Below the pieces are notes generated by a model. That model saw only the letters and a program-made list of their open reading frames with translations. It made no database searches and was not told the DNA's origin. A stretch of 64,000 nt of DNA from NCBI RefSeq assembly GCF_023238205.1, contig NZ_CP096661.1, positions 1-64,000 of the forward strand, in the 5' to 3' direction. Below, piece after piece: positions 14,286 through 44,740 of this stretch (position 1 is the stretch's first letter; each line of letters begins with the position of its first letter). A program made the position numbers and the translations under genes. The stretch comes from Halorussus limi (GTDB lineage Archaea > Halobacteriota > Halobacteria > Halobacteriales > Haladaptataceae).

Positions 14286-14292
14286 GATAAAA
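14286..14292 (-). promoter_or_regulatory. TATA-like box of the second chitinase gene
   Basis: On the minus strand it reads TTTTATC, 26-32 nt from the ATG at 14260, consistent with a leaderless transcript. This supports choosing that ATG over the longer upstream reading. Confidence 0.55.
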
Positions 14293-14408
14293 CTTGGTAC
14301 GTTGTGACATCACAGAGCCGCGCGACGGCCCGCCACAACTCGCCCCGGTGAGACCGAGCGTAACCGCCCGGCCATCCCGGACGCAAATCCGGTCTCGGGA
14401 ACCCCAAT

Positions 14409-14416
14409 AGATATAC
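14409..14416 (+). promoter_or_regulatory. TATA-like box of the creatininase-family gene
   Basis: AGATATAC lies about 27 nt before the ATG at 14440. It supports that ATG over the in-frame TTG at 14431. Confidence 0.5.
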
Positions 14417-14439
14417 GGCCGACACGAGCATTGGTACCT

Positions 14440-24793: not shown

Positions 24794-24846
24794 CACCCTC
24801 CGTCTTCCTCGCGGGAGTACTTATAGGCCGGCGACGGTCGGACCCG

Positions 24847-25686
24847 TCACTCGGCGTCGCCGCGGCCGTCCGTCGGCGGGTCGTCGATGTCGTACATCAT
24901 CGTCTCCAGTCGCTGGTCGAGACCCGCCGTGAGACCGCCGTCGATGGCGAGTTCGGCGCCCGTGACGAACGACGCCTCGTCGGACGCGAGAAAAGCCACG
25001 GCGGCCGCCACGTCCTCGGGGCGGCCGAACCGGTCGACCGGATACTGATTTAGCCACTCCTCGCGGACCGGTCCCTCGCTGGTGAGTTTCTCGCTCGACG
25101 CGTCGGTGATGATGCTCCCCGGACAGACCGCGTTCGAGCGGACGCCGTGTCGCCCGTACTGCGTGGCGATAATCCGAGACAGCGCGAGGACACCGTTCTT
25201 CGACGCGGAGTAGGCGGCGAGACCGATGCCGAGTCGGGCGTTGACCGAGGAGACGTGGACCATCGCGCCGCCGCCCGACTCGACCATCGCCGGGAGCGTC
25301 TCGCGCGCACAGAGGAACTGCCCTTTGAGGTTCACGTCCACGATTCGGTCCCACGTCTCCTCCGTGACTCGGTCCGGATTCCCGTCGTCGAACGAACCGC
25401 CGGCGTTGTTCACGAGCACGTCCACGCTCCCGTGGGCGTCCATCGTCGCCTCGACCATCGTCGAAACGTCGGTCGCGTCGCTCACGTCGGTGCGGACGAA
25501 CTCGGCGGTGCCGCCGTCGTCCTCGATTGCGGCAACCGTCTCCGCACCGCCTTCTGCGTCCACGTCAGCCACGACTACGGTGGCGTCCTCGGCGGCGAGG
25601 CGTCTGGCGATAGCCCGGCCGATACCGTTGCTCGCTCCGGTGACGATAGCGACGTCTCCGCTTCGACTGCGGTCGCTTCTGTCCAT
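24847..25686 (-). CDS. Short-chain dehydrogenase/reductase
   Basis: A 279-residue classical SDR. The cofactor motif is TGASNGIG (16-23), D41 after VVVAD favours NAD(H), NNAG is at 93-96, and the catalytic S147, Y159 and K163 are present (SSVNARLG, YSASK). The C-terminal loop GAELAIDGG is typical, with an unusual 20-residue acidic tail. It is the first gene of a three-gene minus-strand run with the acetyltransferase and anmK. It may oxidise or reduce a sugar or sugar acid; D-lactate, the MurNAc side chain, is less likely as SDR substrate. Specificity is unknown. Confidence 0.88.
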   Translation of the reverse strand: MDRSDRSRSGDVAIVTGASNGIGRAIARRLAAEDATVVVADVDAEGGAETVAAIEDDGGTAEFVRTDVSDATDVSTMVEATMDAHGSVDVLVNNAGGSFDDGNPDRVTEETWDRIVDVNLKGQFLCARETLPAMVESGGGAMVHVSSVNARLGIGLAAYSASKNGVLALSRIIATQYGRHGVRSNAVCPGSIITDASSEKLTSEGPVREEWLNQYPVDRFGRPEDVAAAVAFLASDEASFVTGAELAIDGGLTAGLDQRLETMMYDIDDPPTDGRGDAE

Positions 25687-25830: not shown

Positions 25831-27816
25831 ATGGTTAACGATAACCATGTCACCGGTGGCGACACCGACGGAAACAGGGTGACTCGGCGGCAGTGGCTCG
25901 CGCTCGGCGGTGGCGCGGCGCTGACAGGATTGGCCGGTTGTAGCGGCGACAACCCGAACGAGACGGACGTGACGATGAGTTCGAAGCCGGACGAGACCGA
26001 CACCACCGGCGAGACGGACACCGAGCAGAGCGGTGGTTCGCCCGTGACAACGACGCTCAACATGCGCGCGCCGGTCAGTTGGCAACCGAGTAAGTCGAAC
26101 GTCAATCCGTTCACCGACACCAAGAACACCGAGTACTGGATGGACTACATGTGGTCGGAGTCGCCGGTGTACCCGAACGCTCGGGGCGAACCCATCTACT
26201 GGCTCGCCGACGAGATAAACCTCAAGGGCGGCGGTTGCGAGGTCCACATCAAACTCAGCGAGGACTACACGTGGTGGGACGGTACCCCGGTAACTGCGAA
26301 AGACGTTCACACGACCCAGCTCATCAGCGACTACAAGAACTACATGGGTCCCGACCAGACCGAAGATAGCTGGGAGGTCGTGGACAAGTACACCGTCAAG
26401 AACGTCCTGCCCGGTCCGGCCAACCCCTCGCTGAAGAAGTCCCAGTACTACTCGGTCGTCGCCAAACACGACTACTTCAAGTCGTGGTTGGAGAAGTACG
26501 AGGACGCGAGCAACGAGAGCGCCGTCAAGCAGGTGACCAAGAACCTCCAAGAACACCGGATAACGCTGAACGACCTCACGGAGAAGGGGTTAGGCTGTGG
26601 CCTCTGGAAGCCGACGCAGCTCTCGCCGACGAAAGCCGTCCACGAGAAGTATCAAGACCACCCGCGCGCCGACTGGACGAACCTGGAAACGTTCAACTGG
26701 CACCTCATCTCCGAGAAACAGAAGGCGATTCAGGCGCTCAAGACCGGAAAGCTGGACATGGGCGACAAGACCGTCACGCAGGCCCAGTCCAACGACAGAG
26801 TCAGCATCTTCAACCGGTTCGGCACCTCCAGCATCGTGAAGTTGGCGATGAACTGGAACAACGAGCACCTCGCCCGCCGGCCGGTCCGCCGCGCCATCGC
26901 GTACCTCCTCGACCACGACGAACTGGTCAAGATAATCAAGACGACGCAGGGGCTGAAGTACAAGTCCCGAAGCACCGTCAACGGGTTGTCCTCGAAGCAG
27001 GCCCAGAAGTGGGGCGGGAAGAGCTTCCAGAACAAACTCATCGGCTACGGTCGAAAGTCACAGCCGGAGAAGGCGAAGAAGGTCCTGCAGGACGCCGGCT
27101 ACTCGAAGAAAGGCGGCGTCTGGGTCGGGCCGAACGGGAGCAAGGTCAACGACCTCACCTACCTGACGCCGCCGTGGAACATCTACGAGACCATCGGGAA
27201 CTACCTCAGCCCGAAACTCGACAAGTTCGGATTCAAGAACAAACTCATCATCCCGTCGTCGAGCGGCTTCTGGAAGCGGTGGACCGACACCCACGACTTC
27301 GACATGGTCAACTGGTTCTCGAACACCTCACACCCGGGGAACGCCTTCGCGACCAACAGCGTGGCCGGTCTGGGCAAGTACAACGAAGTCGCCACCGTCA
27401 AGCAACCGAAGGGCAAGTGCAAGGTCAATCGCACGACGCCCGAACTCAGCCAGCCGCGGAGCAAGAAACTCAACCACCCCATCCGGCCGAAGTTCCCGAA
27501 GAAGGTGGGCACAATGGGAACCGGGGGCGAGCAACAGACGCTCTACCCCGTCAAGTGGAACGACATCATCACCCAAACCCAGTCCGCGGACGAGGTCAAG
27601 AAGTACGCCAAGAAGTTCATGTGGTACATGAACTGGCAGGTGCCTCACATCGGCTTCTACGACGAGACGAGGGCGTACTGGGGCAACACCGACAAGTTCA
27701 ATTTCCCCACCGGAAAGGTGGACGACCACCCGAACGCCAAGGAGACGAAGTCGGAACACTTCACGAACGCGATGGAGTTCCTCTCGAAGGGTCACATCAG
27801 CGCGAAGACCAAGTGA
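25831..27816 (+). CDS. Tat lipoprotein substrate-binding protein of an oligopeptide-type ABC importer
   Basis: A 661-residue SBP_bac_5-type receptor. The Tat motif VTRRQWLALGG (RR 19-20) ends in lipobox LAGC (C37), so it is exported folded and lipid-anchored. A Ser/Thr/Asp-rich linker (about 38-75) precedes the binding domain. YTWWDGTPVTAKDVH is the family signature, and RRPVRRAIAYLLDHDELV is also typical. The protein is unusually rich in lysine for a secreted haloarchaeal protein. With the permease and ATPase genes downstream it would import peptides, muropeptides or chitooligosaccharides; the family covers all three. It stands alone before a gap holding two opposite-strand small genes. Confidence 0.92.
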   Translation: MVNDNHVTGGDTDGNRVTRRQWLALGGGAALTGLAGCSGDNPNETDVTMSSKPDETDTTGETDTEQSGGSPVTTTLNMRAPVSWQPSKSNVNPFTDTKNTEYWMDYMWSESPVYPNARGEPIYWLADEINLKGGGCEVHIKLSEDYTWWDGTPVTAKDVHTTQLISDYKNYMGPDQTEDSWEVVDKYTVKNVLPGPANPSLKKSQYYSVVAKHDYFKSWLEKYEDASNESAVKQVTKNLQEHRITLNDLTEKGLGCGLWKPTQLSPTKAVHEKYQDHPRADWTNLETFNWHLISEKQKAIQALKTGKLDMGDKTVTQAQSNDRVSIFNRFGTSSIVKLAMNWNNEHLARRPVRRAIAYLLDHDELVKIIKTTQGLKYKSRSTVNGLSSKQAQKWGGKSFQNKLIGYGRKSQPEKAKKVLQDAGYSKKGGVWVGPNGSKVNDLTYLTPPWNIYETIGNYLSPKLDKFGFKNKLIIPSSSGFWKRWTDTHDFDMVNWFSNTSHPGNAFATNSVAGLGKYNEVATVKQPKGKCKVNRTTPELSQPRSKKLNHPIRPKFPKKVGTMGTGGEQQTLYPVKWNDIITQTQSADEVKKYAKKFMWYMNWQVPHIGFYDETRAYWGNTDKFNFPTGKVDDHPNAKETKSEHFTNAMEFLSKGHISAKTK

Positions 27817-28327: not shown

Positions 28328-28426
28328 ACGCGAACGTGCGGCGCGGGCGTAATGAGCCTTCCTCTCTCTGTGCGAAGAACCCCCATAGCTTTATTGAGGT
28401 GGGAGAAATACAGGCAGGATAGCACG

Positions 28427-29452
28427 ATGTATTATGCGAAGCGAATCGGCCAATCAGTGCTGGTGTTTTTCATCGCACTGACAGTAACGTTCGCTCTCTA
28501 CCGGATGTTACCGTTCGGTCCGGTCGAGATGGTCAAGGTTCGACTGATGAAACAACTGATCGAACAGGGCCAGAGCCCGTCGGCCGCGCAGATGCAGACC
28601 ATCAACTCGATGGTCAAAACGTACACCGGTATCGACCCGTCGGTGCCGTGGTACGTCTCCTACTACGAGTACCTGAAGAACATCGTCCTCTATCAGGACT
28701 TCGGGCGGTCGATATTCAAGAACAAGCCTGTGTTCGACATCCTCTTCCGAGCGATGCCGTGGTCGGTGTTCATCAGCATCTACGGCCTCGCGCTCGGGAC
28801 GACCGTCAGTCTGCTGTTCGGCGCCGTCATGGCGTACAACGAGGGGAGCAAGTTCGACGCCGTGATGACCATCGTCTCCATCGGCAACAGCACGGTTCCC
28901 TACTACGTCGTCGCCATCCTCACGCTCATCGTCTTCTCGTTCAACCTCGGGTGGTTCCCCAGCGGGGGGCGCATGAACCCCTCGACGACGCCCGGCCTCA
29001 ACTTGCCGTTCATCGTCGGCGTCGTCAAGCACGCGGCGCTCCCGGTCTTCTCGGCGTTCATCGCCAGTTTCGGCGGCGCGCTGGCGTTTCGCGGCAACTG
29101 CATCCGCGAGATGGGCGAGGGATACATCCGTGTCGCCCGACTTCGCGGCATCAGTCAGGGTCGAATCGCGATTCGCTACGTCGGCCGTAACGCGCTGTTG
29201 CCCGTCTACACCAACATCATGATGGGCATCGCGAGCGTCTTCGGGAGCAGCATCATCCTCGAGACGATATTCAACTACCCTGCGATGGGGATGGTGACGT
29301 TCAACGCGCTCATGAACCGGGACTACCCGCTCATCATGGGGTCGTTCATCTTCTTCACGATAATCACGCTGTTGGGCATCCTCGTCGCCGACCTCACGTA
29401 CGGTATCATCGACCCGCGCGTCAAAGGAGGGAAGGAACGTGAAACCTACTGA
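28427..29452 (+). CDS. ABC transporter permease, DppB/OppB type
   Basis: A 341-residue membrane permease. It begins MYYAKRIGQSVLVFFIALTVTFALYRMLP, the first membrane helix, followed by a large external loop and about five more helices. The cytoplasmic EAA-type coupling loop is YIRVARLRGISQGRIAIRYVGRNALLP. The start at 28427 is chosen because upstream in-frame codons belong to the antisense zinc-ribbon region, and a TATA-like GCTTTATT lies about 35 nt upstream. It overlaps the next permease by 14 nt. It forms the channel with the DppC-type protein. Confidence 0.92.
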   Translation: MYYAKRIGQSVLVFFIALTVTFALYRMLPFGPVEMVKVRLMKQLIEQGQSPSAAQMQTINSMVKTYTGIDPSVPWYVSYYEYLKNIVLYQDFGRSIFKNKPVFDILFRAMPWSVFISIYGLALGTTVSLLFGAVMAYNEGSKFDAVMTIVSIGNSTVPYYVVAILTLIVFSFNLGWFPSGGRMNPSTTPGLNLPFIVGVVKHAALPVFSAFIASFGGALAFRGNCIREMGEGYIRVARLRGISQGRIAIRYVGRNALLPVYTNIMMGIASVFGSSIILETIFNYPAMGMVTFNALMNRDYPLIMGSFIFFTIITLLGILVADLTYGIIDPRVKGGKERETY

Positions 29453-30506
29453 CGACCCGACCGAATCGGCCGACGACGCCGACGGTGCGGCCGTTCGCAC
29501 CGACGGCGGAACCGGTAGCCGCTCCGGCGGGACCGGCGGCGTGGACGAGACGCTGTTCACGCAGACGTCGAACGTGCCCGACCCGACGGTCCGCGAGAAG
29601 GTCGAGCGAGCGTTCGAGCGCCGCGTCTACGCCCCCGCGGCGATACTCCTGAACGATTGGCGGGGACTCGTCGGGTCGGTCATCCTCGTCGGATTCGTCC
29701 TCATGGGGACGGTCGGCGTCTACGTCGTTCCCGAACCCACCGTGATGGAGGGGCCCATCTTCGTGCCGCCGTTCACGAACTGGTCGTACCCGCTCGGGAC
29801 CGGCGTGATGGGCGAGTCACTCTTCAAGCAAGTCGTTCACGCGACGCCCGCGATGTTGCAGATGATAACCGCCGGTGCGCTGCTCTCGGTCGTCCTCGGG
29901 ACCGGAATCGGAACCGTCGCGGGCTACCGCGGCGGTCGCACCGACAAGACCCTGATGACGCTGACCGACACCGTCCTCACGATTCCGGGGCTGGTCCTCA
30001 TCATCGTGCTGGCGACAATCTATCAGCCCGAAAACCCCTTCGTGGTCGGTCTCATCCTCGGCATCGACAACTGGCCGCGGCTGGCGCGAACCATCCGCTC
30101 GCAGGTGTTGAGCATCCGCGAGGAGGCGTTCACCGAGGCGTCGCGCATCATGGGGCTGTCGGACCCCCACATCCTCCGCCGAGACGTCATCTCGAACCTG
30201 ATGCCGTACATCACGGTGAACTTCGCCAACAGCGCGCGCCGCATCATCTTCGAGTCGGTCGCGCTATACTTCCTCGGCATCCTTCCCCAATCGCAACTCA
30301 ACTGGGGCGTGATGATGGACGACGCGTACACCGGCGCGAACCTGACGAACCCGAACCAGATTCACTGGTTGCTGGTTCCGATGGCGCTCATCGTCCTCAT
30401 CTCGCTCGGGTTCATCCTGCTGGCGCAGGGACTCGACCGCGTCTTCAACGTCAAACTCCGGGCCCGCCACGAGGGGTCGGCGAACGGCGGAGGTGACGCG
30501 ACGTGA
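29439..30506 (+). CDS. ABC transporter permease, DppC/OppC type
   Basis: A 355-residue permease starting at a GTG inside the end of the previous gene. A disordered acidic N-terminal extension (about 1-65) precedes the first helix (WRGLVGSVILVGFVLMGTVGVYVV). The coupling loop is EEAFTEASRIMGLSDPHILRRDVISNLMP, with the EAA motif recognisable. Several further helices follow, ending with the segment LVPMALIVLISLGFILLAQGL. The external loop GTGVMGESLFKQVVHATP is typical of OppC/DppC. It pairs with the upstream permease; both feed from the Tat lipoprotein receptor. Confidence 0.92.
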   Translation: MKPTDDPTESADDADGAAVRTDGGTGSRSGGTGGVDETLFTQTSNVPDPTVREKVERAFERRVYAPAAILLNDWRGLVGSVILVGFVLMGTVGVYVVPEPTVMEGPIFVPPFTNWSYPLGTGVMGESLFKQVVHATPAMLQMITAGALLSVVLGTGIGTVAGYRGGRTDKTLMTLTDTVLTIPGLVLIIVLATIYQPENPFVVGLILGIDNWPRLARTIRSQVLSIREEAFTEASRIMGLSDPHILRRDVISNLMPYITVNFANSARRIIFESVALYFLGILPQSQLNWGVMMDDAYTGANLTNPNQIHWLLVPMALIVLISLGFILLAQGLDRVFNVKLRARHEGSANGGGDAT

Positions 30507-30742
30507 GTACCGCATCGACCGGACGCGTGACGTCCGTCCTGCTGGCGATTCGACAGTCGTTCCTCGCCTTCGTTACGGCCATCGGCGTCGGTTGCTGCCT
30601 GCTCGCCGTCCTGCTGTCGGAGTACGTCCTCGCCGGACTGTCGTACGGCGTCCTCGCGGGGATGTTCGCCATCTGGGGCGTGAGCGCGTTCGTCTACGCC
30701 GTCGTCGGCCACCTCGGACTCCGACTCATCGGGTACCGCTAA
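30503..30742 (+). CDS. Small membrane protein coupled to the ABC permeases
   Basis: A 79-residue protein with two clear membrane segments (about 16-38, FLAFVTAIGVGCCLLAVLL, and about 45-68, GLSYGVLAGMFAIWGVSAFVYAV), and a short Arg-containing end. It starts at a GTG overlapping the permease stop (GTGA) and so is translated with it. It lies between the permease and ATPase genes. No known family is recognised. It could be an accessory subunit of the importer, because tight coupling inside a five-gene transport operon is rarely accidental. Confidence 0.7.
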   Translation: MSTASTGRVTSVLLAIRQSFLAFVTAIGVGCCLLAVLLSEYVLAGLSYGVLAGMFAIWGVSAFVYAVVGHLGLRLIGYR

Positions 30743-30868
30743 CCAGACCAATGACACGACAAACCACACGATTCATGTCTGCTTTCGACACTGCGACGCC
30801 GCCGTATCGCCGCGCCAACCGAGACAGACCCCCGGAACCGACCGGCGGGGTCCGCGGAATCGCCGACC

Positions 30869-30876
30869 GGAGGTGA
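30869..30876 (+). promoter_or_regulatory. Strong Shine-Dalgarno sequence of the first ATPase gene
   Basis: GGAGGTGA ends 5 nt before the ATG at 30882, a near-perfect match to the 16S rRNA tail. It decides the start of the DppD-type ATPase in favour of ATG 30882 over the GTG at 30873, which is part of this site. Confidence 0.8.
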
Positions 30877-30881
30877 CAGCA

Positions 30882-31991
30882 ATGGCAACGGAACACCGAC
30901 CTACCAAGGCGGACGACGACCGCGCCGACGAGGAGGTCATCTTGGAGGTACGGGACGCCAGCGTCTCGTTCAGCACTGACGACGAAGACTCTCGAGTCCT
31001 GCGCGACGTGAACCTCACCGTTCGCGCCGGCGAAGCGCTCGGCGTCGTCGGGGAGAGCGGGTCGGGCAAGTCGATGCTCGCCTCGGCGATGCTGGACGCC
31101 GTCGTCTCGCCGGGACAGGTGAGCGGCGAGGTCATCTATCACCCGCCGGAGGGGACTCCCGTCGACGTCCTCTCGCTCTCGCGGGAGGAACTGATGGACC
31201 TCCGCTGGAACGAGATTTCGTTCGTCATTCAGGGCGCCCAGAGCGCGTTCAACCCGACGATGGTCATCGGCGACCACTTCGAGGAGACGCTGCGCGCGCA
31301 CGACGCGGACGTGGCCGAGGGCATGGAACGCGCCCGCGAACTGCTGGCCGACCTCTACCTGCCCGCGGACCAAGTGCTGAACTCCCACCCGCACGAACTC
31401 TCGGGCGGCATGAAACAGCGCGCGCTCATCGCGCTCGGACTCGTCCTCGACCCGAACGTGGTCGTGATGGACGAACCGACGGCCGCGCTCGACCTCCTGA
31501 TGCAACGGTCCATCGTCAGCATGCTAGAGAGCCTCCGGGAGAAGTACGACCTCACGCTGGTATTCGTCACCCACGACCTGCCGCTGGTCGCGGACCTCGC
31601 CGACCGACTCGCCGTAATGTACGCCTTCGACCTCGTGGAACTCGGCCCGACCGACGAACTCATCGAGAACGCGGCCCACCCGTACACGCGCGCGCTTCTC
31701 AACGCGGTTCCCAACATCTCCGACCGGGCGATGGACATCGAGGGCATCGAGGGGACGAGTCCCAACCCCGCCTCGCTGCCCGCCGGCTGTTCGTTCCACC
31801 CCCGGTGTCCGCTCGCGGACGAGACCTGCGAGCGGAACGACCCGGAGATGCGGGACGTGGACGGCGACCACGAGGCCGCCTGTTTCCACTGGCAGGACGC
31901 CCGCGAGGAAGTCCCGCTGATGCTCGGCGACCCGGAGGACACCATCGACCGCGAGTACGGCGACGGAAACGCCGGAGGTGCGTCTCGATGA
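30882..31991 (+). CDS. ABC transporter ATPase, DppD/OppD type
   Basis: A 369-residue ATPase. The Walker A is GESGSGKS (57-64), the Q-loop VIQGAQSAFNP, the signature LSGGMKQR, the Walker B VVVMDEPTAALD, and the H-loop FVTHDLPLV. The C-terminal oligopeptide-transporter extension has CSFHPRCPLADETC plus a later ACFHW cysteine, the four-Cys motif known in OppD/DppD proteins to hold an iron-sulfur cluster. An N-terminal acidic tail of about 18 residues is halophilic in character. It overlaps the next ATPase gene by 4 nt (ATGA). It energises import with its DppF partner. Confidence 0.94.
   Translation: MATEHRPTKADDDRADEEVILEVRDASVSFSTDDEDSRVLRDVNLTVRAGEALGVVGESGSGKSMLASAMLDAVVSPGQVSGEVIYHPPEGTPVDVLSLSREELMDLRWNEISFVIQGAQSAFNPTMVIGDHFEETLRAHDADVAEGMERARELLADLYLPADQVLNSHPHELSGGMKQRALIALGLVLDPNVVVMDEPTAALDLLMQRSIVSMLESLREKYDLTLVFVTHDLPLVADLADRLAVMYAFDLVELGPTDELIENAAHPYTRALLNAVPNISDRAMDIEGIEGTSPNPASLPAGCSFHPRCPLADETCERNDPEMRDVDGDHEAACFHWQDAREEVPLMLGDPEDTIDREYGDGNAGGASR
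31974..31980 (+). promoter_or_regulatory. Shine-Dalgarno sequence of the second ATPase gene
   Basis: GGAGGTG lies 7 nt before the ATG at 31988, inside the end of the preceding gene. It supports translational re-initiation across the ATGA overlap. Confidence 0.7.
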
Positions 31992-33133
31992 GCGGCGCGG
32001 ACGACGAACCGCTGCTATCGCTCCGGAACGTGAGCGTCCACTTCGAGGACGAACAGCTGTTCGGTCTCGCCGGTTCGGAGACCGTCCGCGCCGTCGACGA
32101 CGTGAGCCTCGACGTCCACGAGAACGACGTGGTGGCGCTGGTCGGCGAGTCGGGGTGCGGCAAGACCACGCTCGGGAAGACCGCCATCGGCGTCCAGCGA
32201 CCCACCGACGGCAACGTGCGGTACCGCGGTCAGGATGTCTGGGAGGCGAAGGACGCGAAGGGGTTCCTCGGCGGCGGGGGCGACGTGACCCACTCGTGGG
32301 AGGAGATTCGACGGTCGCTCCAGATGATTCACCAGGACCCCGGGAGTTCGCTGAACTCGAACTTCACCATCGAGTCGATACTCTCGGCGCCGCTGAAGAA
32401 GTGGGAACCCGAGATGAGCGAGGCCGACCGCCGGGTCCGCATCTACGGCCTGCTCGAATACGTCGGCATGACGCCCGCGGAGGACTACGCCAGCCGATAC
32501 CCCCACCAACTGTCGGGCGGCGAACAACAGCGCGTCGCGCTCATCCGGGCGCTGTTGATGAACTCGGACCTCATCCTCGCCGACGAGGCCATCAGCGCAC
32601 TCGACGTGTCGCTACGCGCGGAGATGATGGACCTCATGCTCGAACTACAGGAGGAGTTCGACACCTCCTACCTGTTCATCTCGCACAACCTCGCCAACGC
32701 GAAGCACCTCACTCAGCGGGCGGGCGGTCGCATCGGAATCATGTACCTCGGCGAACTCGTAGAAATCGGCACGCCCGAGCAGATAATCCACGACCCACAG
32801 CACCCCTACACGAAGGTGTTGCTGTGGGCGACTTCGGACCTCCAGAACAGGTCGGAGGGCGTCTCGACGCCTCCGGTTCGGTCGCTCGACATCCCCGAAC
32901 CGACCGACCCGCCCTCCGGGTGTCGGTTCCACACGCGCTGTCTCGAAGCGCGGGAGGTCTGCACGCGCGAGTGCCCGTCGCTCGACGACCACGACGGCGA
33001 CGGCCGACGGACCGCCTGCTTCCGCGCGGACCCGGACCACGAGTACTGGGAGAGCGAACCGCTCGACGGCGCTGAAACCGAAGAAAGCGCGACCGGTAAC
33101 CGAAGCGAACGCGGTGCGGCCGGAGACGACTGA
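31988..33133 (+). CDS. ABC transporter ATPase, DppF/OppF type
   Basis: A 381-residue ATPase. The Walker A is GESGCGKT (53-60), the Q-loop MIHQDPGSSLN, the signature LSGGEQQR, the Walker B LILADEAISALD (Glu present, with Ala where Pro is usual), and the H-loop FISHNLA. The C-terminal cysteine motif is CRFHTRCLEAREVC. An insert after the Walker A region (KDAKGFLGGGGDVTH) is longer than in typical DppF. It completes the importer, after which the operon ends; the next gene is on the opposite strand. Confidence 0.94.
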   Translation: MSGADDEPLLSLRNVSVHFEDEQLFGLAGSETVRAVDDVSLDVHENDVVALVGESGCGKTTLGKTAIGVQRPTDGNVRYRGQDVWEAKDAKGFLGGGGDVTHSWEEIRRSLQMIHQDPGSSLNSNFTIESILSAPLKKWEPEMSEADRRVRIYGLLEYVGMTPAEDYASRYPHQLSGGEQQRVALIRALLMNSDLILADEAISALDVSLRAEMMDLMLELQEEFDTSYLFISHNLANAKHLTQRAGGRIGIMYLGELVEIGTPEQIIHDPQHPYTKVLLWATSDLQNRSEGVSTPPVRSLDIPEPTDPPSGCRFHTRCLEAREVCTRECPSLDDHDGDGRRTACFRADPDHEYWESEPLDGAETEESATGNRSERGAAGDD

Positions 33134-33166: not shown

Positions 33167-34282
33167 TCAGTCGACGCGGTACTGTTCGACCTTCTGCTCG
33201 TCCACGTCGATGCCGAGTCCCGGGCCGTCGGGAACCGGGTACGCGCCGTCCTCGACCTCGAACGGGTCCTCGACGATGTAGTCGTCCCACCCGTAGTAGA
33301 CGCTGTCCGGCGGCAGGTTGATGCCGGGCGTGCTGGCCACGGTGTGGAGCACCGCCGCGGTCTTGACCCCGAGGTCGAACCCGCAGTGGTGGGTGACGGA
33401 GACGCCGGCGTTGGCGGCCATCGCGACCTGTTCGCGGACGCGGAGGATGCCGCCCGCTGGGACGAGGTCCACGACGGCCACGTCGATGGCGTCGGCCTGG
33501 AGGAGGTATCGGAGGTTCCGCGGGAAGTAGGTGTCCTCGTTGACCGCGACGGGCGTCCGCACGCGGTCCCGGAGCGACGCGTACGTGCCGTAGGTGTCGA
33601 TTCGGACGGGTTGTTCGAGGTACTGGAGCAGGATGCCCTCCTCTTCGAGTCGGGTGGCGACCCGGACCGCGTCCTCGAACGACCACCCCTGATTGGGGTC
33701 GAGGCGGAACTCAAGTTGGCCGTCGACCTCCTCGTGCATCGCTCGGATTCGCGCCACGTCCTCGCGCCAGTCGGGACCCGCCTTCGTCTTCAGCGTCGAG
33801 AACCCGTGTTCGACCGCTCGTCTGGCGTACGTGCGCGACTCCTCGGGACCGAGGATGCCGAGGCAGGTGGCGACGGGAACTCGGTCGCGGGTCTTCCCGC
33901 CGAGGAGTCGGTGGACGGGTTGGCCGACCGACTTGCCGAACGCGTCCCAGAGCGCGGTCTCGACCGCACCGAGGAACGGCCGCACTTTCACGTACGGGAA
34001 GTAAAACGAGTCCACGAAGTCGCGTATCTCGCCGACTTCGCGGCCGACGAGTTCGGGGGCGACGACGTCGTCCATCACGGCCTTCGTCACTGCCGCGGAC
34101 TTCATTCCGACGAGCATCTCGCCCCACCCGGTCACGCCGTCGTCGGTATCGACCCTGACGAGCATGCGCGTGACGGACTCGACTTCGTCGTGATTGCTCA
34201 CGTAGGGCGCGAGGCCGAGGTCGGATTCGAGCGGCGCTACGTCCATCTCCACCGGGATGGCGGTGACGTTCGTAATCGGCAT
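33167..34282 (-). CDS. Enolase-superfamily enzyme (mandelate racemase/muconate lactonizing group)
   Basis: A 371-residue enolase-superfamily protein. The K-x-K motif on strand 2 is K165-T-K167; metal ligands are D195 (RLDPNQGW), E223 (YLEQP) and E249 (VNEDTY). On strand 6 the lysine typical of dipeptide epimerases is absent (VVDLVPAGGI, D272), while H298/H299 in THHCGFD follow on strand 7, as in the mandelate racemase Asp-His dyad. This favours a sugar-acid dehydratase or racemase over an L-Ala-D/L-Glu epimerase. Haloarchaea use enolase-superfamily dehydratases in the semi-phosphorylative Entner-Doudoroff route. It abuts the ABC operon convergently. Confidence 0.9.
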   Translation of the reverse strand: MPITNVTAIPVEMDVAPLESDLGLAPYVSNHDEVESVTRMLVRVDTDDGVTGWGEMLVGMKSAAVTKAVMDDVVAPELVGREVGEIRDFVDSFYFPYVKVRPFLGAVETALWDAFGKSVGQPVHRLLGGKTRDRVPVATCLGILGPEESRTYARRAVEHGFSTLKTKAGPDWREDVARIRAMHEEVDGQLEFRLDPNQGWSFEDAVRVATRLEEEGILLQYLEQPVRIDTYGTYASLRDRVRTPVAVNEDTYFPRNLRYLLQADAIDVAVVDLVPAGGILRVREQVAMAANAGVSVTHHCGFDLGVKTAAVLHTVASTPGINLPPDSVYYGWDDYIVEDPFEVEDGAYPVPDGPGLGIDVDEQKVEQYRVD

Positions 34283-34366
34283 ACCTGTCCCTCGTAGCCC
34301 ACCTACAAATAATTCGTCACTGTGGCGGACGCCGCCAGCGACGACGGAGACGGGGTCGGTCCGCAG

Positions 34367-34374
34367 TTTTTATG
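34367..34374 (+). promoter_or_regulatory. TATA-like box of the deacetylase gene
   Basis: TTTTTATG lies 26-33 nt upstream of the ATG at 34400, consistent with a leaderless transcript. It supports that start over an upstream in-frame ATG at 34322. Confidence 0.5.
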
Positions 34375-34399
34375 CCGCCGCCGGGTGTCGCGAGAATCG

Positions 34400-35224
34400 A
34401 TGCCAACCGAGACAGTTCGCGTTCTCGTCGTCGGTGCCCACCCCGACGACTGCGACCTCAAAGCCGGCGGCGTCGCCTGTAAGTACGCCGACCGCGGTGA
34501 CGAAGTGCTGTTCGTCTCGATGACGAACGGCGAGGCGGGCCACCACGAACTCGCGGGCCGGGAACTGGTAGAGCGCCGCCGCGCGGAGGCCGAGGCCTCG
34601 GCGGCGGTCGCGGGCGCCGAGTTCGAGATGTTCGACGTTCCCGACGGGCGACTCGAACCGTCGCTAGAGAACCGCGACCGCCTCATTCGGACGATTCGGG
34701 AGTTCCGCCCGGATCTCGTCCTCACCCACCGACCGAACGACTACCACCCGGACCACCGGTACACCGCCCAACTCGTGCGGGACGCCGCCTACCTCGTCGC
34801 GGTGCCGAACGTCTGTCCGGCGACACCCGCGCTCGACCGGAATCCCGTCTTCGCGTACCTGAGCGACGGGTTCGACCGGCCGTACCCCTTCTCGCCGGAC
34901 GTGGTCGTGGACGTGGACGACGTGGCCGACCGGAAGTTCGAAATGCTCGACTGCCACGAGTCCCAGATGTACGAGTGGCTTCCCCACGTCGAAGACGCGT
35001 TAGCGGAGGTCCCCGACGACCCCGACGCGCGCTTCGAATGGCTCCGGGACGGCGGCCTGCCCCACGTAGAGGCGCTCGCGGACGTGTCGGACCGCTTCCG
35101 CGACGCGCTGGTCGAGCGCTACGGCGCGGACGGCGAGGACGTTCGCTACGCGGAGGCGTTCGAGGTGAGCGAGTACGGCCGACCGCTGACCGACGACGCG
35201 GCCGAGCGCCTGTTCCCGTTCTGA
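34400..35224 (+). CDS. PIG-L/LmbE-family deacetylase
   Basis: A 274-residue PIG-L family zinc hydrolase. The metal/catalytic motif GAHPDDCDL (H14, D16, D17) is at the N-terminus and the third zinc ligand is in NDYHPDHR (H116, H119). Members remove acetyl groups from GlcNAc-containing substrates; the archaeal diacetylchitobiose deacetylase Dac of Thermococcus belongs here. In this island it could deacetylate GlcNAc, chitobiose or MurNAc after entry. No signal peptide is present, so it is cytoplasmic. The next gene starts 52 bp downstream in the same direction. Confidence 0.92.
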   Translation: MPTETVRVLVVGAHPDDCDLKAGGVACKYADRGDEVLFVSMTNGEAGHHELAGRELVERRRAEAEASAAVAGAEFEMFDVPDGRLEPSLENRDRLIRTIREFRPDLVLTHRPNDYHPDHRYTAQLVRDAAYLVAVPNVCPATPALDRNPVFAYLSDGFDRPYPFSPDVVVDVDDVADRKFEMLDCHESQMYEWLPHVEDALAEVPDDPDARFEWLRDGGLPHVEALADVSDRFRDALVERYGADGEDVRYAEAFEVSEYGRPLTDDAAERLFPF

Positions 35225-35276
35225 GGAGTCGGCGCCAGCGGTGTACTTATGTCGCGGGCGTTCGAGACGACGGACG

Positions 35277-36005
35277 ATGACGAACGTCCTCCTCGCCGGA
35301 GAGTCGTGGGTGACCGTACAGTTCGAAATCAAGGGCCGAAACGTGCTGCAAGACAGTCAGTACGGTGAGGCCGCCGACCGGTTCGTCTCGACGCTGGAGG
35401 AGGTCGGCGCGTCGGTGACGTACCAGCCGTGTCACGTCGCGGCGGAGTCGTTCCCCCGAACGACGGCGGAACTCGACGAGTACGACCTCGTGATTCTCAG
35501 CGACGTCGGCGCCGACACCCTCCAGATTACGGACCGAGTCGCCGACGGCGACACCGACGTCGACCGGTGTGCGCTGCTCGCGGAGTGGGTCCGGGAGGGC
35601 GGTGCGCTCGGCATGGTCGGCGGCTACATGAGTTTCGCGGGGAAGGGCGGCCAAGCCCGGTACGGGCGGACGCCGGTCGCGGACGTGTTACCGGTCGAAG
35701 TGTCCGCGGGCGACGACCGGGTCGAGACGCCCGACGGGGCGGTTCCCCAAAACGAGGGCGTGCCGGGCGCCGACCTCCCCGCGGAGTGGCCCCACGTCCT
35801 CGGCTACAACCGGACCGTAGCGAAGTCTGACGCGGACGTCTGGGCGACGGTCCGAAGCGACCCGTTCCTCGCGGTCGGCGACTACGGCGACGGGAGTTCG
35901 TTCGCGTACGCGACCGACTGCGCGCCCCACTGGGCGCCGGAGGGACTGCTCTCGTGGGACCACCTCCCGACGCTCTGGAGACGCGTCCTCGACCGCGTGA
36001 CGTAG
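35277..36005 (+). CDS. Glutamine-amidotransferase-like protein (PF07090 type), lacks nucleophile Cys
   Basis: A 242-residue class I glutamine-amidotransferase-like (ThuA-like) protein. The N-terminal VLLAGESWVTVQFEIKG, then YDLVILSDVGADTL, LGMVGGYMSFAGKGGQARY and GYNR are hallmarks of the PF07090 family. Where true amidotransferases have the nucleophile elbow with Cys, this reads GGYMSF, so it should not hydrolyse glutamine. Related ThuA proteins act in sugar catabolism, so a sugar-binding or isomerising role is conceivable. It is probably co-transcribed with the deacetylase. The late HW motif (APHWAPEG) is also conserved in my recollection of the family. Confidence 0.82.
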   Translation: MTNVLLAGESWVTVQFEIKGRNVLQDSQYGEAADRFVSTLEEVGASVTYQPCHVAAESFPRTTAELDEYDLVILSDVGADTLQITDRVADGDTDVDRCALLAEWVREGGALGMVGGYMSFAGKGGQARYGRTPVADVLPVEVSAGDDRVETPDGAVPQNEGVPGADLPAEWPHVLGYNRTVAKSDADVWATVRSDPFLAVGDYGDGSSFAYATDCAPHWAPEGLLSWDHLPTLWRRVLDRVT

Positions 36006-36019
36006 CGGGTCGGTCGCGG

Positions 36020-37024
36020 TCAGGGGAGTTCGTCGAGGTAGGCGTTCCACACGGCCATCGGTTCCTCGCAGGCTATCTCCGAAATGGTCCGACAGCCGTC
36101 GTAGCCCCACACGAACACGCTGTCCGCGCCGGTGTCGAGCGCGGTCCGGGTCGCGGTCCGAACGTCGTCGGCGGCCGACTCGCCCGACAGGCCGAAGCCC
36201 TGAATCCAGAGTTGGCTCCGGAGACCGTGGTCGTCGGCGACCTCGACCAGTTCCTCGCCGTACCGCGCGACGTACTCGCCGGGGTCGGCGTCCTCGGTGA
36301 ACGCCGCCCAGTAGGGGTCGGTCGCCAGCACGTCGATGTGGTCGCTCTCGGCCATCTGCGCCCAGTCGCGCGGCCCGTGGTCGGCCGACTGGGTGGGCAT
36401 GAGACAGACGGCGTTCTCCGCGCCCTCCTCGCTACCCAGAGCCATCATCTCGTCGAGGAAGTCGAGCATCGAGGCCTCGCGGAACCGGGAGACTCGCTCG
36501 GTCTCGGTCGCCGGCATCGGTTCGTCGTACCGCTCGCGGTACCGCTCCCGGCAGTGGTCGCACCGACAGCACCACACGTCGTCGGGGTAGCCGTCCTCGT
36601 ACCAGTGGACGTCGTGCCAGTGGGGTTCGTCCCAGAAGAGAACGTCCGCGCCGAGTCCGGCGGCGTCCTCGGTCCACCCGCGCATGAACTCCCGGAACGC
36701 CGGGTCGTTGAAACAGGCGGCCGGAACCCGCTCGCCGGTGCTGAGCACCTGCCGGGAGTCCGGGTTGTGGGCCACGAACCGGGAGAACTCCTCGCCGCCG
36801 AAGACGCCGCCGACCGCCCACGGGTTGACGTACGTCGTCAGCCCCCGGTCGCGACTCGCCGCGACGATGTCGGCCATCGTCTCGCGATAGAACGCCCGGT
36901 CGCGCTCGCTGAACGTGTGGAGGACGGCGTCGAGTCCGGCCTCTCGAAAGCGGTCCAAGTCCGCCGCCGCGTGTTCTGGGTCCTGTACGCCGAAGTAGCT
37001 CGTACCGGCTTCTGTGTCGGGCAT
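36020..37024 (-). CDS. TIM-barrel glycosidase-like protein with CCRCDHC motif
   Basis: A 334-residue protein. The start is the ATG of MPDTEAGTSYFGVQD; longer upstream reading is Arg/Pro-rich and rejected. Strand-like blocks (TYVNPWAVGG, GADVLFWDEPHWHD, AVCLMPTQ, IDVLATDPYWAAF, LWIQGFGLS, DSVFVWGYDG) fit a (beta/alpha)8 barrel. The Glu and Asp in FWDEPHW are good catalytic candidates. A Cys cluster, CCRCDHC, follows the fourth strand, as in the protein at 18138, suggesting that the two are distant paralogues. No signal peptide is present. It is convergent with the amidotransferase-like gene and divergent from the PLP enzyme. Confidence 0.75.
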   Translation of the reverse strand: MPDTEAGTSYFGVQDPEHAAADLDRFREAGLDAVLHTFSERDRAFYRETMADIVAASRDRGLTTYVNPWAVGGVFGGEEFSRFVAHNPDSRQVLSTGERVPAACFNDPAFREFMRGWTEDAAGLGADVLFWDEPHWHDVHWYEDGYPDDVWCCRCDHCRERYRERYDEPMPATETERVSRFREASMLDFLDEMMALGSEEGAENAVCLMPTQSADHGPRDWAQMAESDHIDVLATDPYWAAFTEDADPGEYVARYGEELVEVADDHGLRSQLWIQGFGLSGESAADDVRTATRTALDTGADSVFVWGYDGCRTISEIACEEPMAVWNAYLDELP

Positions 37025-37154
37025 GGAACGCGTCGTGCTATCGATGCACATCCGAGAACCATGAACGTACCGGTGGGCGAAGGGAGAAAAAGGGTCGAAG
37101 TGAGTCGAAATGGGCCGAGGCGAGGTAGACCGAGACGGGCGGCGAACGCCGAAC

Positions 37155-37163
37155 CTATTTAAC
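37155..37163 (+). promoter_or_regulatory. TATA-like box of the SelA-like gene
   Basis: CTATTTAAC lies 24-31 nt upstream of the ATG at 37186. The spacing implies a leaderless transcript for the PLP enzyme. Confidence 0.6.
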
Positions 37164-37185
37164 GCAGGCCGCGCCAGACGTTCGT

Positions 37186-38394
37186 ATGCCACCCGAGACC
37201 ATCTACGAGGAGTTGGGCGTCCCGCACGTGGTCAACGCGACGGGGACGAAGACCCGCATCGGCGGGAGTCGAATCCGGCCGGAGGCCGTCGACGCGATGG
37301 CCCGCGCGTCGGAGGCGTTCGTGCGCCTCTCGGACCTGCAGGCCAGGGCGAGCGAACTGATAGCGGACGTGACCGGGGCGGACGCGGGCTACGTCGCGTC
37401 CGGCGCGGCGAGTGCGCTCGCGCTCGGCGCGGCGGCCTGCATCGCGGGCGACGACCTCGGAGCGATGGCCCGCCTCCCCGACACCGAGGGCGTCGCCGAC
37501 GAAATCGTGATGGCCCGGACCCACCGGACCGGCTACGACCACGCGCTCCGGGCCGCGGGCGCGACAGTCGTGGACGTCGGGACCAACGACAAGCACCTCG
37601 GCACCGGGTCGCGGAACGTCGAACCGTGGGAAATCGAGGACGCCATCGGCGAGGACACCGCGGCGGTCGCCTACGTCGAGAAGTCCTACACAGAACCGCC
37701 GCTCGACGTGGTGTGCGACATCGCCCACGACAACGGCGTTCCCGTAATCGTGGATGCGGCCGCCGAACTCCCGCCGACGAGCAACCTCTCGGCGTTCGTG
37801 GACGCCGGTGCTGACCTCGTGGCGTTCAGCGGCGGGAAGGCCGTCCGCGGCCCGCAGACGACCGGTATCCTCGCCGGGCGAGAGGAGCTCGTCGAGTCGG
37901 TCGCGGCCCAGCACCTCGACATGCACGCCGCCGAGCAGGTGTGGGAACCGGCGCGCGAACTCGTGGACCCCGAGGAACTCGGCGGCGTCCCCCGGCAGGG
38001 AATCGGTCGCCCGATGAAGGTCGGCAAGGAGGAACTCGTCGGCCTGATTCGCGCGCTCGAACTGTTCGTCGAGGAGGACCACGACGCCCTCACCGAGGAG
38101 TGGCGCGAACGCGCGGAGCGAATCTCCGCCGACCTCGATTCTGTCGCCGGATTCGACACCTCGCTCACGGCCGACGACAAGACCGCGGTTGCGCCCGAAG
38201 TCATCGTCTCGGTGGACCCGGACGTCGCCGGCGTCTCGGCGGCCGACGTGGTCGGCGGACTCCGGCGCGAGGAACCCCGCGTGTTCGTCGGCGCGGACGC
38301 GCTCCCGGCGGGCGAGTTCACGGTCAACCCGATGTGTCTCACCGACGCGGAGGCCGACTACGCCGTCGAACGCATCGCCGCACAGGTCGAATAG
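37186..38394 (+). CDS. SelA-like PLP enzyme (D-glucosaminate ammonia-lyase-type candidate)
   Basis: A 402-residue fold-type I PLP protein of the SelA/DgaE group. The PLP lysine is K218 in FSGGKAVRGPQTTG; D190 in VIVDAAAELPP pairs with the pyridine nitrogen. The N-terminal VVNATGTKTRIGGSR and YVASGAASALALGAAACIAG are typical. It is not selenocysteine synthase: the tRNA-binding parts are missing and the neighbours are catabolic. Relatives such as Salmonella DgaE eliminate ammonia from D-glucosaminate-6-phosphate to form the 2-keto-3-deoxy acid. Next to a glucose dehydrogenase, RidA and a deacetylase, an amino-sugar-acid lyase is the best guess. Confidence 0.85.
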   Translation: MPPETIYEELGVPHVVNATGTKTRIGGSRIRPEAVDAMARASEAFVRLSDLQARASELIADVTGADAGYVASGAASALALGAAACIAGDDLGAMARLPDTEGVADEIVMARTHRTGYDHALRAAGATVVDVGTNDKHLGTGSRNVEPWEIEDAIGEDTAAVAYVEKSYTEPPLDVVCDIAHDNGVPVIVDAAAELPPTSNLSAFVDAGADLVAFSGGKAVRGPQTTGILAGREELVESVAAQHLDMHAAEQVWEPARELVDPEELGGVPRQGIGRPMKVGKEELVGLIRALELFVEEDHDALTEEWRERAERISADLDSVAGFDTSLTADDKTAVAPEVIVSVDPDVAGVSAADVVGGLRREEPRVFVGADALPAGEFTVNPMCLTDAEADYAVERIAAQVE

Positions 38395-38421
38395 TGAGAC
38401 GGTCGAAATCTGTGGCGGAAG

Positions 38422-39489
38422 CTACAGCGTGTCGAACTCCACGACGGTCTTTATCACGTCGTCGCCGGTCTCGAACGCTCGCTCGACCTCGTCGGGACCG
38501 TAGACGCCGGTGACGAGTTCGTCGGTGAACCACTCGGGGAACGCAGCGAGCGACTCCTCGGCCGCCTCGTACTGCTCGACGTTGGAGTTGACGCTCCCGA
38601 GCAGCGCCTTGTTCTGCAACACCATCTCGCGGTGGATACGCCCGCCGTCGAGTTCGACCGTCCCGTCCGAGGGGATGCCGAGCAGTGCCCCGACGCCGTT
38701 CGGCGCGAGCGCAGTCACCGTCTCGAACGCGTGGGGCGCGTGTCCGGTCGCCTCGTAGACGAAGTCCATCGCCTCGTGAGCGTCTAGCACCTCGGGGAGC
38801 GGCGTCTCGCGCGAATCGACGTAGGTCGCGCCGAGGCGCTCGATTATCTCTATCGTCGGGTCGGGTCGGTCGCGCCGACCGAGGCAGTAGCACCGCTCGA
38901 AGTCGTCGCGTTCGACCAGCATCGCCAGCGTCAGGAGACCGAGCGGCCCGTTGCCGAGGACGAGCGCGGACTCGGGCTCCCACTCGAACGCCGACCGACT
39001 GGCGTAGGCGTGTTCGAGGGCCTTCTCGGTGTTGCTGACCGGTTCGACGAGGAACCCGGTGGTCGCGAAGTCGTCGGGGACGCCGACGAGAAATCGCTCG
39101 TCGCTGGTGAAGTAGTCGGCCATGTAGCCGTGCGCGCCGACGATTCCCCGTTCGAGGTATGCGCCGTCGGGAGCCATGTCGGGTTCGCCGCGCTCGAAGT
39201 GCTCGTTTCCCGCTCCCGGCGGCCGCCGGACCGTCGGGACGACGAGGTCGCCCGCGTCGAATCGGGTCCCGTTCGGGTCCTCTACGACCCCGACCGCCTC
39301 GTGGCCGAGAATCTGGTAGTCCGTGCCCTCGGGAAAGCCGCCGTGGCTCCCGCCGACGACTTCGTGGTCGGTGCCGTCGATGCCGACTCGGAGCGTCCGA
39401 ACCAGCGCTTCGCCGGTGTCGGGAGTCGGTTTCGGCACGTCGACGACTCGGGGCGTCGATTCACCGCGCCGAACTGCGATGGCTCTCAT
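38422..39489 (-). CDS. gdh: Glucose 1-dehydrogenase-family zinc dehydrogenase
   Basis: A 355-residue medium-chain dehydrogenase of the haloarchaeal glucose dehydrogenase type. It begins MRAIAVRRGESTPRVV. Zinc ligands match the Haloferax enzyme: D38 (IDGTD), H63 and E64 (LGHEA), and a Glu near 149 (FLVEPVS). The nucleotide motif is LVLGNGPLGLLTLAML. The family oxidises glucose and some analogues to the lactone with NADP. In this operon glucosamine or another murein-derived hexosamine may be the substrate. It starts 14 bp downstream of the RidA stop, so the two share a transcript. Confidence 0.93.
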   Translation of the reverse strand: MRAIAVRRGESTPRVVDVPKPTPDTGEALVRTLRVGIDGTDHEVVGGSHGGFPEGTDYQILGHEAVGVVEDPNGTRFDAGDLVVPTVRRPPGAGNEHFERGEPDMAPDGAYLERGIVGAHGYMADYFTSDERFLVGVPDDFATTGFLVEPVSNTEKALEHAYASRSAFEWEPESALVLGNGPLGLLTLAMLVERDDFERCYCLGRRDRPDPTIEIIERLGATYVDSRETPLPEVLDAHEAMDFVYEATGHAPHAFETVTALAPNGVGALLGIPSDGTVELDGGRIHREMVLQNKALLGSVNSNVEQYEAAEESLAAFPEWFTDELVTGVYGPDEVERAFETGDDVIKTVVEFDTL

Positions 39490-39503
39490 CGGTCGGTCAC
39501 TCC

Positions 39504-39893
39504 TCACTCCTCCGTCCCGCGGGCGCTGGCGACGACTTCGATTTCGACGCCGATGTCGATGGGGAGGTCCTCGACTTGGACCGCGCTCCGGGCGGGATAC
39601 GGTGACGACATGTACTCGGCGTACACCTCGTTGATGGCGTCGTAGTCGTCCATGTCCTGCACGAAGACGGTCGCTTTCACCACGTCGTCGAGCGAGCGGT
39701 CGGCCGCCGCGAGGACCGCTTCGACGTTTTCCAGCGTTCGCTCGGTCTGTTCCTCGATGGTGTCGCCGACGATGTCGCCGGACTCGGGGTCGACCGGTCC
39801 CTGCCCCGAGACGTATATCCGGTCCCCGTCGCGGATACCCTGCGAGAAGGGGCCGATGCTCGGCGGCGCGGCGTCGGTGCTAATTTCCTCCAT
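39504..39893 (-). CDS. ridA: RidA-family enamine/imine deaminase
   Basis: A 129-residue YjgF/YER057c/UK114 protein. The invariant arginine is R102 (PARSAVQV), E119 lies in VEIEVVASA, and SIGPFSQGI and IYVSGQGPVDPESG form the N-terminal half. RidA hydrolyses reactive enamines and imines released by PLP-dependent dehydratases, giving the keto acid plus ammonia. Here it is the first gene of an operon with a sugar dehydrogenase, opposite a PLP lyase candidate, which fits handling of an aminoacrylate-like intermediate. It is preceded by about 135 nt of untranslated sequence if the TATA box at 40028 is used. Confidence 0.93.
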   Translation of the reverse strand: MEEISTDAAPPSIGPFSQGIRDGDRIYVSGQGPVDPESGDIVGDTIEEQTERTLENVEAVLAAADRSLDDVVKATVFVQDMDDYDAINEVYAEYMSSPYPARSAVQVEDLPIDIGVEIEVVASARGTEE

Positions 39894-44735: not shown

Positions 44736-44740
44736 GTGTG

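Follow-up and report, generated by a model that had tools for sequence, protein, structure and literature searches.

A route from N-acetylglucosamine (GlcNAc) through glucosamine and glucosaminate to 2-keto-3-deoxygluconate (KDG) was published in 2025 as a genome-based prediction for chitin clusters of Natrarchaeobius (PMC12343721). Archaea secrete wall-cutting enzymes that kill bacteria, with the use of bacteria or their walls as food left open (PMC12352652), and in mycobacteria a lactyl etherase other than MurQ has been postulated but not identified (PMC13041923). Here we describe a peptidoglycan-type locus of ~29 kb and about 25 genes (10.8–39.9 kb) in the first 64,000 nucleotides of contig NZ_CP096661.1 of the haloarchaeon Halorussus limi (the window). 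Judged from its encoded proteins, the locus is probably a plasmid-type block for the scavenging of bacterial peptidoglycan. The host archaeon itself has no bacterial-type cell wall. What is new is the archaeal peptidoglycan-feeding context together with a candidate for the missing lactyl etherase. Because predicted exported wall enzymes, a transporter and intracellular muramic-acid enzymes are combined in one locus, the food question becomes directly testable; the locus also puts forward specific candidates for a lactyl etherase other than MurQ and for an oxidative, phosphorylation-free breakdown of amino sugars in archaea.

The distal end of the locus had been described in an earlier note as an oxidative amino-sugar pathway. 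The genes named there stand at the given coordinates; the segment (33167–39893) has seven open reading frames (ORFs), since a GATase1-like gene and a gene of no Pfam family (36020–37024) are interspersed. The Pfam families PF02585, PF16912, PF03841/PF00266, PF01042 and MR_MLE are found above cut-off. The note left out the flanking NamZ, NagZ, AnmK, amidase and ABC transporter genes, a second Gdh and the muramic acid half of the pathway, and it did not recognise that the enolase-superfamily gene is likely an important one. The explanation we favour, and consider fairly probable, is that these seven genes form the sugar-breakdown end of a plasmid-type locus for scavenging peptidoglycan.

Recurrence of the locus in haloarchaea

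Among 391 haloarchaeal genomes surveyed, NamZ (an exo-beta-N-acetylmuramidase) occurs in 17, from 12 genera, and AnmK (anhydro-N-acetylmuramic acid kinase) in 16, all of which lie inside the NamZ set (hypergeometric p about 1e-27, related genomes being treated as independent). In the window both NamZ domains score above cut-off (271.9 and 162.6 bits). An orthologue of the DgaE-like pyridoxal phosphate (PLP) enzyme is present in 15 of the 17 NamZ genomes, within 25 kb of NamZ in 12, compared with 89 of 391 overall. The gene order is shuffled between genera and the set is retained, which argues for function over mere shared ancestry of the block. The same gene set is found again in many genera, far from chance, and the locus is real and functionally coherent.

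No MurQ is found at cut-off in the 17 NamZ genomes (best 36.6 bits against 302, the matches being partial and in ORFs of about 600 amino acids or more), and neither NagA nor NagB reaches its curated cut-off there; identical searches succeed in bacterial controls. The standard N-acetylmuramic acid (MurNAc) 6-phosphate etherase and the GlcNAc-6-phosphate route are thus not visible, which supports the inference of the earlier note that the pathway runs without GlcNAc-6-phosphate. A literature search on archaeal AnmK or NamZ catabolism returned nothing specific, which is weak evidence since subscription papers were mostly outside reach.

In the pathway that we propose, the amidase and GH18 glycosidases, exported by twin-arginine translocation (Tat), would loosen bacterial wall material outside the cell, and a Dpp-type ABC transporter would take in small wall fragments (Table 1). 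NamZ, NagZ and probably a Cwp19-like barrel protein would split these to GlcNAc and MurNAc or anhydro-MurNAc, from which two branches would lead to KDG.

An alternative is that the locus serves mainly chitin or chitin-like amino-sugar polymers, as in Natrarchaeobius, with NamZ and AnmK incidental. The GH18 genes in the window would suit such a role, a chitin-cluster prediction is in print (PMC12343721), and NagZ, a sugar ABC transporter, PIG-L, Gdh, the DgaE-like enzyme and RidA are found together in other genomes without NamZ. These NamZ-less sets often comprise NagZ (a GH3 N-acetylglucosaminidase), the sugar transporter, an IclR regulator and a true galactonate dehydratase. However, chitin holds no known substrate for AnmK, the transporter here is of peptide type as against the sugar type of chitin-like loci, and NamZ and AnmK are found in the same genomes and at the same loci, in some genomes along with an exported muramoyl amidase, so a mainly chitin-directed locus seems quite improbable.

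Table 1. Predicted features of the locus and adjoining genes in the window.
Feature	Coordinates	Strand	Basis and remarks
IclR-family regulator	10812..11573	+	PF01614/PF09339; adjoins NamZ in most NamZ loci
GH18 glycosidase, twin-arginine signal (predicted export)	11733..12899	-	PF00704, E 1e-76; RRKFLRG motif
GH18 glycosidase, twin-arginine motif in N-terminal part	13076..14431	-	PF00704, E 2.5e-73; RRKFMKR
Creatininase-family amidohydrolase	14431..15240	+	PF02633; in 16/17 NamZ genomes
NagZ-type GH3 beta-N-acetylhexosaminidase, no signal seen	15253..16842	-	NF003740, 223.6 over cut-off 207; KHFPGHG motif
NamZ exo-beta-N-acetylmuramidase (GH171)	16848..18014	-	PF07075, E 3e-81; PF20732, E 1.5e-47
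TIM-barrel protein, no Pfam family, fold nearest Cwp19	18138..19313	-	in 16/17 NamZ genomes
Class C beta-lactamase/PBP4B-like serine hydrolase	19424..20464	-	PF00144; best NCBIfam PBP4B, 81 bits, under cut-off
Amidase_2 N-acetylmuramoyl-L-alanine amidase, Tat signal (predicted export)	20615..21235	-	PF01510, E 1e-30; RRDVLKR
HAD-IA phosphatase	21382..22065	+	PF13419
AnmK anhydro-N-acetylmuramic acid kinase	22593..23780	-	PF03702, E 4e-99; NF007148, 453.5 over cut-off 387
GNAT-family acetyltransferase	23816..24796	-	PF00583
Short-chain dehydrogenase/reductase (SDR), glucose-1-dehydrogenase type	24847..25686	-	NF005559, 241.4 over cut-off 215
Family 5 solute-binding lipoprotein, peptide/muropeptide type	25831..27816	+	PF00496; Tat-type signal
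DppB, DppC, DppD, DppF ABC transporter genes	28409..33133	+	ORFs; PF00528 for DppB; order kept in relatives
Enolase-superfamily (mandelate racemase, MR, subgroup) enzyme	33167..34282	-	PF13378/PF02746 (MR_MLE)
PIG-L/CE14 N-deacetylase	34397..35224	+	PF02585, E 1.5e-31, 110 bits over 28.2; AHPDD motif
GATase1-like protein	35274..36005	+	PF07090, E 1e-72
TIM-barrel glycosidase-like protein, no Pfam family	36020..37024	-	near DgaE-like gene in 13 loci
DgaE/SelA-like PLP enzyme	37186..38394	+	PF03841/PF00266; NF047797, 206 bits
Gdh paralogue	38422..39489	-	PF16912, E 2.5e-93
RidA enamine/imine deaminase	39504..39893	-	PF01042; TIGR00004, 153 over cut-off 106; R102
Cytochrome P450	40492-41829		PF00067
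Orc1/Cdc6-like gene	42681-44174	-	

The proposed GlcNAc branch

GlcNAc would be used without phosphorylation. The PIG-L protein, whose closest solved structure is a diacetylchitobiose deacetylase (E 3e-22), would release glucosamine, which the Gdh paralogue would oxidize to glucosaminate. This paralogue matches 2b5v (E 1e-157) and has the fold of haloarchaeal glucose dehydrogenase with the zinc ligands of the Haloferax mediterranei enzyme (D38, H63, E149). In a tree the DgaE-linked Gdhs branch apart from the canonical ones, including the characterised H. mediterranei enzyme, and position 154, just after zinc ligand Glu150, is Asn in 22 of 22 linked rows (17 distinct copies) but Ile in 13 of 13 canonical rows. 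The aligned residue of the Sulfolobus enzyme is Asp154, which we take to be a sugar contact. A second, canonical Gdh is encoded elsewhere in the genome. We propose that the Gdh of the cluster acts as a glucosamine 1-dehydrogenase.

The DgaE-like enzyme would eliminate water from glucosaminate to give an enamine/imine, and RidA would speed its hydrolysis to KDG and ammonia; KDG kinase, whose haloarchaeal equivalog scores over cut-off in this genome, would pass KDG into the haloarchaeal Entner-Doudoroff pathway. The residues named in the earlier note (K218 of the DgaE-like enzyme, R102 of RidA and the Gdh zinc ligands) are all confirmed. K218 lies in an SGGK motif and aligns with the Lys of 7lc0 (Salmonella DGL, E 2e-47). 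Directly before the GxGRPMKVGKE motif the enzyme carries a 27-residue insertion, present in all 47 haloarchaeal sequences in every context and lacking in 7lc0 and 8t7j. The insertion was considered as a marker for muramate and ruled out, being equally present in loci without NamZ. The DgaE-like assignment of the earlier note stands as far as K218 and the relation to 7lc0 are concerned, but the enzyme fails the curated DgaE cut-offs and carries the insertion. The best reading of this enzyme is as a putative ammonia-lyase of free D-glucosaminate, assisted by RidA and ending at KDG; possibly it is also a muramonate lyase.

Glucosaminate might instead be phosphorylated first, the DgaE-like enzyme then acting on glucosaminate-6-phosphate as in Salmonella. 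The closest characterised relative is indeed a glucosaminate-6-phosphate ammonia-lyase, and the same suggestion is in print for Natrarchaeobius (PMC12343721). Yet the only dedicated sugar kinase seen in the locus is AnmK, the haloarchaeal KDG kinase takes free KDG, and the family, below the DgaE cut-offs, has a remodelled loop. Prior phosphorylation therefore appears distinctly unlikely.

Neighbourhoods were counted for 48 DgaE-like genes in 43 genomes, with partners sought within 8 kb. PIG-L is found near 28, RidA near 21, and Gdh or a second medium-chain (MDR) dehydrogenase near 21; in several loci a non-orthologous MDR dehydrogenase stands in place of Gdh. In L079, L083 and L089 the DgaE-like gene lies beside a peptide-type ABC transporter, with no PIG-L, Gdh or RidA in that range. 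The GlcNAc-to-KDG pathway of the earlier note finds partial support in that PIG-L, dehydrogenase, DgaE-like enzyme and RidA recur together, Gdh is a distinct paralogue and a KDG kinase is present; it is plausible, but was incomplete and had already appeared in print (PMC12343721). RidA, taken there as the telling clue, does accompany 21 of the 48 genes but is not unique evidence, because the Ong cluster has a PLP deaminase and a RidA protein for free glucosaminate (PMC9537276). Given the Natrarchaeobius prediction and the Ong precedent, this pathway is sound but not new.

A further glycosidase-like barrel (36020–37024) has a moderate model (pLDDT 73), built from only two sequences, in which several glycosidase-like barrel folds are tied.

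A proposed MurNAc branch and the enolase-superfamily enzyme

In the other branch AnmK and the HAD phosphatase would convert anhydro-MurNAc via MurNAc-6-phosphate to MurNAc, whose lactate would be removed by a route other than MurQ. From its sequence and setting the HAD-IA protein is proposed to be a MurNAc-6-phosphate phosphatase with a MupP-like role; a HAD of one of two unrelated types is in the locus of 14 of the 16 AnmK genomes. The analysis suggests the order anhydro-MurNAc, MurNAc-6-phosphate, MurNAc, N-acetylmuramonate, lactate elimination, enamine, KDG.

The barrel protein beside NamZ (18138–19313) adjoins it in nearly every locus. Its AlphaFold (AF2) model (pLDDT 89.7) has the Cwp19 lytic transglycosylase as top match in both Foldseek and VIA [Cwp19 5oq3, Z 25.8, 3.2 Å, 285 aligned; fucosidase, PgaB and GH42 folds follow within 1–3 Z]. 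Cwp19 belongs to the GHL10 domain family (PMC6016235), to which the barrel has no match in the Pfam search (PF02638); a true, exported GHL10 protein lies near NamZ in L072, L073 and L100. A lytic transglycosylase in the locus would explain the need for AnmK. The barrel was also tried as the etherase and rejected, its nearest fold being Cwp19, among glycosidases, and its bacterial relatives having no NamZ nearby. These relatives (L143–L164; Alphaproteobacteria, Chloroflexota and Planctomycetota; 23–34% identity), several of which are near ABC transporter genes, apparently form an undescribed glycosidase-like family.

The most NamZ-specific gene is that of the enolase-superfamily enzyme, present in all 17 NamZ genomes. 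In 16 of them NamZ is no more than 17 kb away; the G073 copy, next to NagZ and the creatininase gene, is located where a contig ends. No genome without NamZ has a higher-scoring enolase, the boundary being narrow (492.5 against 491.7 bits). In the enolase tree a split (support 0.993) divides the copies linked to NamZ from those that are not, and the linked enzymes are set apart at S29 and P170, the latter adjoining the catalytic KTK. The KTK, the metal ligands, D272 and H299 give the pattern of the mandelate racemase subgroup (KxK plus an Asp/His dyad). An identity as L-Ala-D/L-Glu epimerase is rejected, as the protein scores 90.2 against a cut-off of 500 and has D272 where the second catalytic Lys on strand 6 would lie. 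As a galactonate/gluconate dehydratase it is likewise rejected (best dehydratase model galactonate dehydratase, 149 against 311); that model is matched instead by a different enolase gene of GlcNAc-type loci (L113, 575.8 over 311).

In NamZ genomes the enolase is always accompanied by a gene of the sugar C1 dehydrogenase type. All 17 loci hold either the SDR (13) or only an F420-dependent enzyme (4) of the luciferase-like monooxygenase family (LLM) resembling glucose-6-phosphate dehydrogenase (G6PDH), both of this type. The SDR of the window is a candidate MurNAc C1 oxidase. The LLM gene adjoins NamZ in L072 (10286–11284), L073, L100 and G147:C5 (174 kb), where it apparently replaces the SDR; F420-linked sugar oxidation in haloarchaea is possible. 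The NamZ specificity, the subgroup residues and this constant partner make the enolase a candidate for the enzyme that stands in for MurQ as lactyl etherase, working once C1 has been oxidised. From its residues and context it may take a C1-oxidised amino sugar as substrate and either eliminate lactate from it or dehydrate it.

Along these lines, the SDR, or the F420-dependent G6PDH-like enzyme elsewhere, may oxidize C1 to give N-acetylmuramonate, from which the enolase would abstract the C2 proton and expel the 3-O-lactate; the 2-acetamido-enoate would then be deacylated by the creatininase-family enzyme or PIG-L, and RidA would hydrolyse the enamine to KDG. MurQ itself works by a C2-H/C3-O elimination, and sugar-acid dehydratases expel the 3-hydroxyl in a comparable way. 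The absence of MurQ at cut-off from all 17 genomes and the case of G026, where a DgaE orthologue is missing but SDR, enolase, AnmK, HAD, RidA and creatininase are still clustered, point in the same direction. On the other hand the linked and unlinked enolases are barely separated by score, SDRs are functionally very diverse and no lactonase was identified; since unlinked homologues occur without NamZ, the reaction in general may concern other sugar acids. We regard this branch as a tentative proposal. It extends the scavenging explanation and does not contradict it. Equally tentative is the wider picture, in which haloarchaea would cleave the lactyl ether in a manner unlike MurQ (C1 oxidation, then carboxylate-assisted beta-elimination of D-lactate by the enolase, with creatininase and RidA finishing to KDG) within a full archaeal peptidoglycan-feeding pathway. 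For the creatininase-family enzyme a deacetylation or ring-opening step in the MurNAc branch is possible.

Enolase homologues also occur with a creatininase-family gene, RidA, a barrel relative and a sugar ABC transporter, without AnmK, in L214 (G051:C54, 4992–12998) and at about 177–187 kb of G271:C3, the former adding a HAD and the latter an SDR and an F420-LLM. These may represent a PLP-free amino-sugar-acid module wider than peptidoglycan.

Lactate might also be removed by the DgaE-like enzyme itself: PIG-L would deacetylate muramic acid, Gdh would yield muramonate, and beta-elimination at C3 would expel lactate in place of water, so that one enzyme set would serve both wall sugars. A lactate leaving group on the beta carbon of an alpha-amino acid is at the position that DgaE-type enzymes eliminate. 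The gene is linked to NamZ and is the only full-length DgaE-like copy in this genome, and the insertion could reshape the pocket. That insertion is, however, just as regular in NamZ-less loci, and the two NamZ genomes without a DgaE orthologue retain AnmK and the enolase, which leaves lactate removal by this enzyme unlikely.

Several points weigh against peptidoglycan scavenging by the proposed pathway, for which all substrates and steps are inferred. The four genomes of the Halorussus group do not count as independent, and the co-occurrence p-values ignore kinship; in two NamZ genomes there is no DgaE orthologue. The GH18 enzymes fit chitin too. As MupP, the HAD scores 20.6 against an equivalog cut-off of 359, and the DgaE-like enzyme stays under the curated DgaE cut-offs (206.4 and 204.5 bits; TIGR01437 cut-off 385.3). 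PIG-L, a dehydrogenase and RidA all lie within 8 kb at only 13 of the 48 DgaE loci, and several loci have a peptide-type ABC transporter only, so that the substrate of the PLP enzyme may be a different one or may be broader.

Replicon and setting

The genome comprises 4.6 Mb in five contigs, and the window is the first part of one of them, 311 kb long. By our own reading of the sequence it encodes ParA-like and Orc1/Cdc6-like proteins, and in the nearest named relatives the locus sits on plasmids of Halorussus and Haladaptatus. On the 5' side of the Orc1/Cdc6-like gene a repeat of ~25 nt, CACCCCTCGTTGCCGCTGTAAAC, occurs at 43955–44739 in four direct copies and one inverted copy; these are likely the origin repeats of the replicon. 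A PIN-domain-like ORF adjoining a short AbrB-like protein (41873–42826) is a possible VapBC-type toxin-antitoxin pair. The DppC-to-RidA segment, with the genes of the earlier note but without NamZ and AnmK, is found twice on one replicon (L116 and L061; G384:C3, 0–11 kb and 210–221 kb); the enolase branches of the two copies are equal in length, as are the Gdh branches, which points to a recent duplication or an assembly effect.

Comparison with known systems

The Natrarchaeobius clusters (PMC12343721) share with this locus CE14/PIG-L, Gdh, DGA (DgaE-like), GAD, IclR and a RidA-family gene in haloarchaea, as well as the overall route. They differ in their chitin context, in the glucosaminate kinase that is assumed and in the RidA-family gene being read as a RutC repressor, whereas the locus here has the NamZ/AnmK peptidoglycan context, a peptide-type transporter and the NamZ-specific enolase-superfamily gene. 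In the Ong oxidative chitin pathway of Pseudoalteromonas (PMC9537276), as proposed here, a PLP enzyme deaminates free glucosaminate, a RidA protein is essential, and KDG is formed without prior phosphorylation and then passed to KdgK. There, however, oxidation is carried out by a lytic polysaccharide monooxygenase outside the cell, and deacetylation, by OngB, an enzyme of D-aminoacylase type, follows the oxidation. OngC figures there as a putative D-amino acid deaminase (PMC9537276).

With bacterial MurNAc catabolism and recycling (NamZ-NagZ-MurQ; AnmK-MurQ; AnmK-MupP-AmgK-MurU) the locus has NamZ, NagZ, AnmK, the amidase and the beta-lactamase-family gene in common, and its pairing of AnmK with a phosphatase is reminiscent of AnmK-MupP in Pseudomonas (PMC5371407). 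It differs in lacking MurQ, in having oxidative enzymes instead and in a HAD that is not MupP by model; an archaeon without murein also has no need for UDP-MurNAc. The archaeal peptidoglycan hydrolases that kill bacteria (PMC12352652) likewise are found in haloarchaea, show a plasmid bias and include Tat-exported wall-cutting enzymes. Killing is the subject of that work, which does not settle whether scavenging occurs; the present locus adds genes for import and intracellular breakdown.

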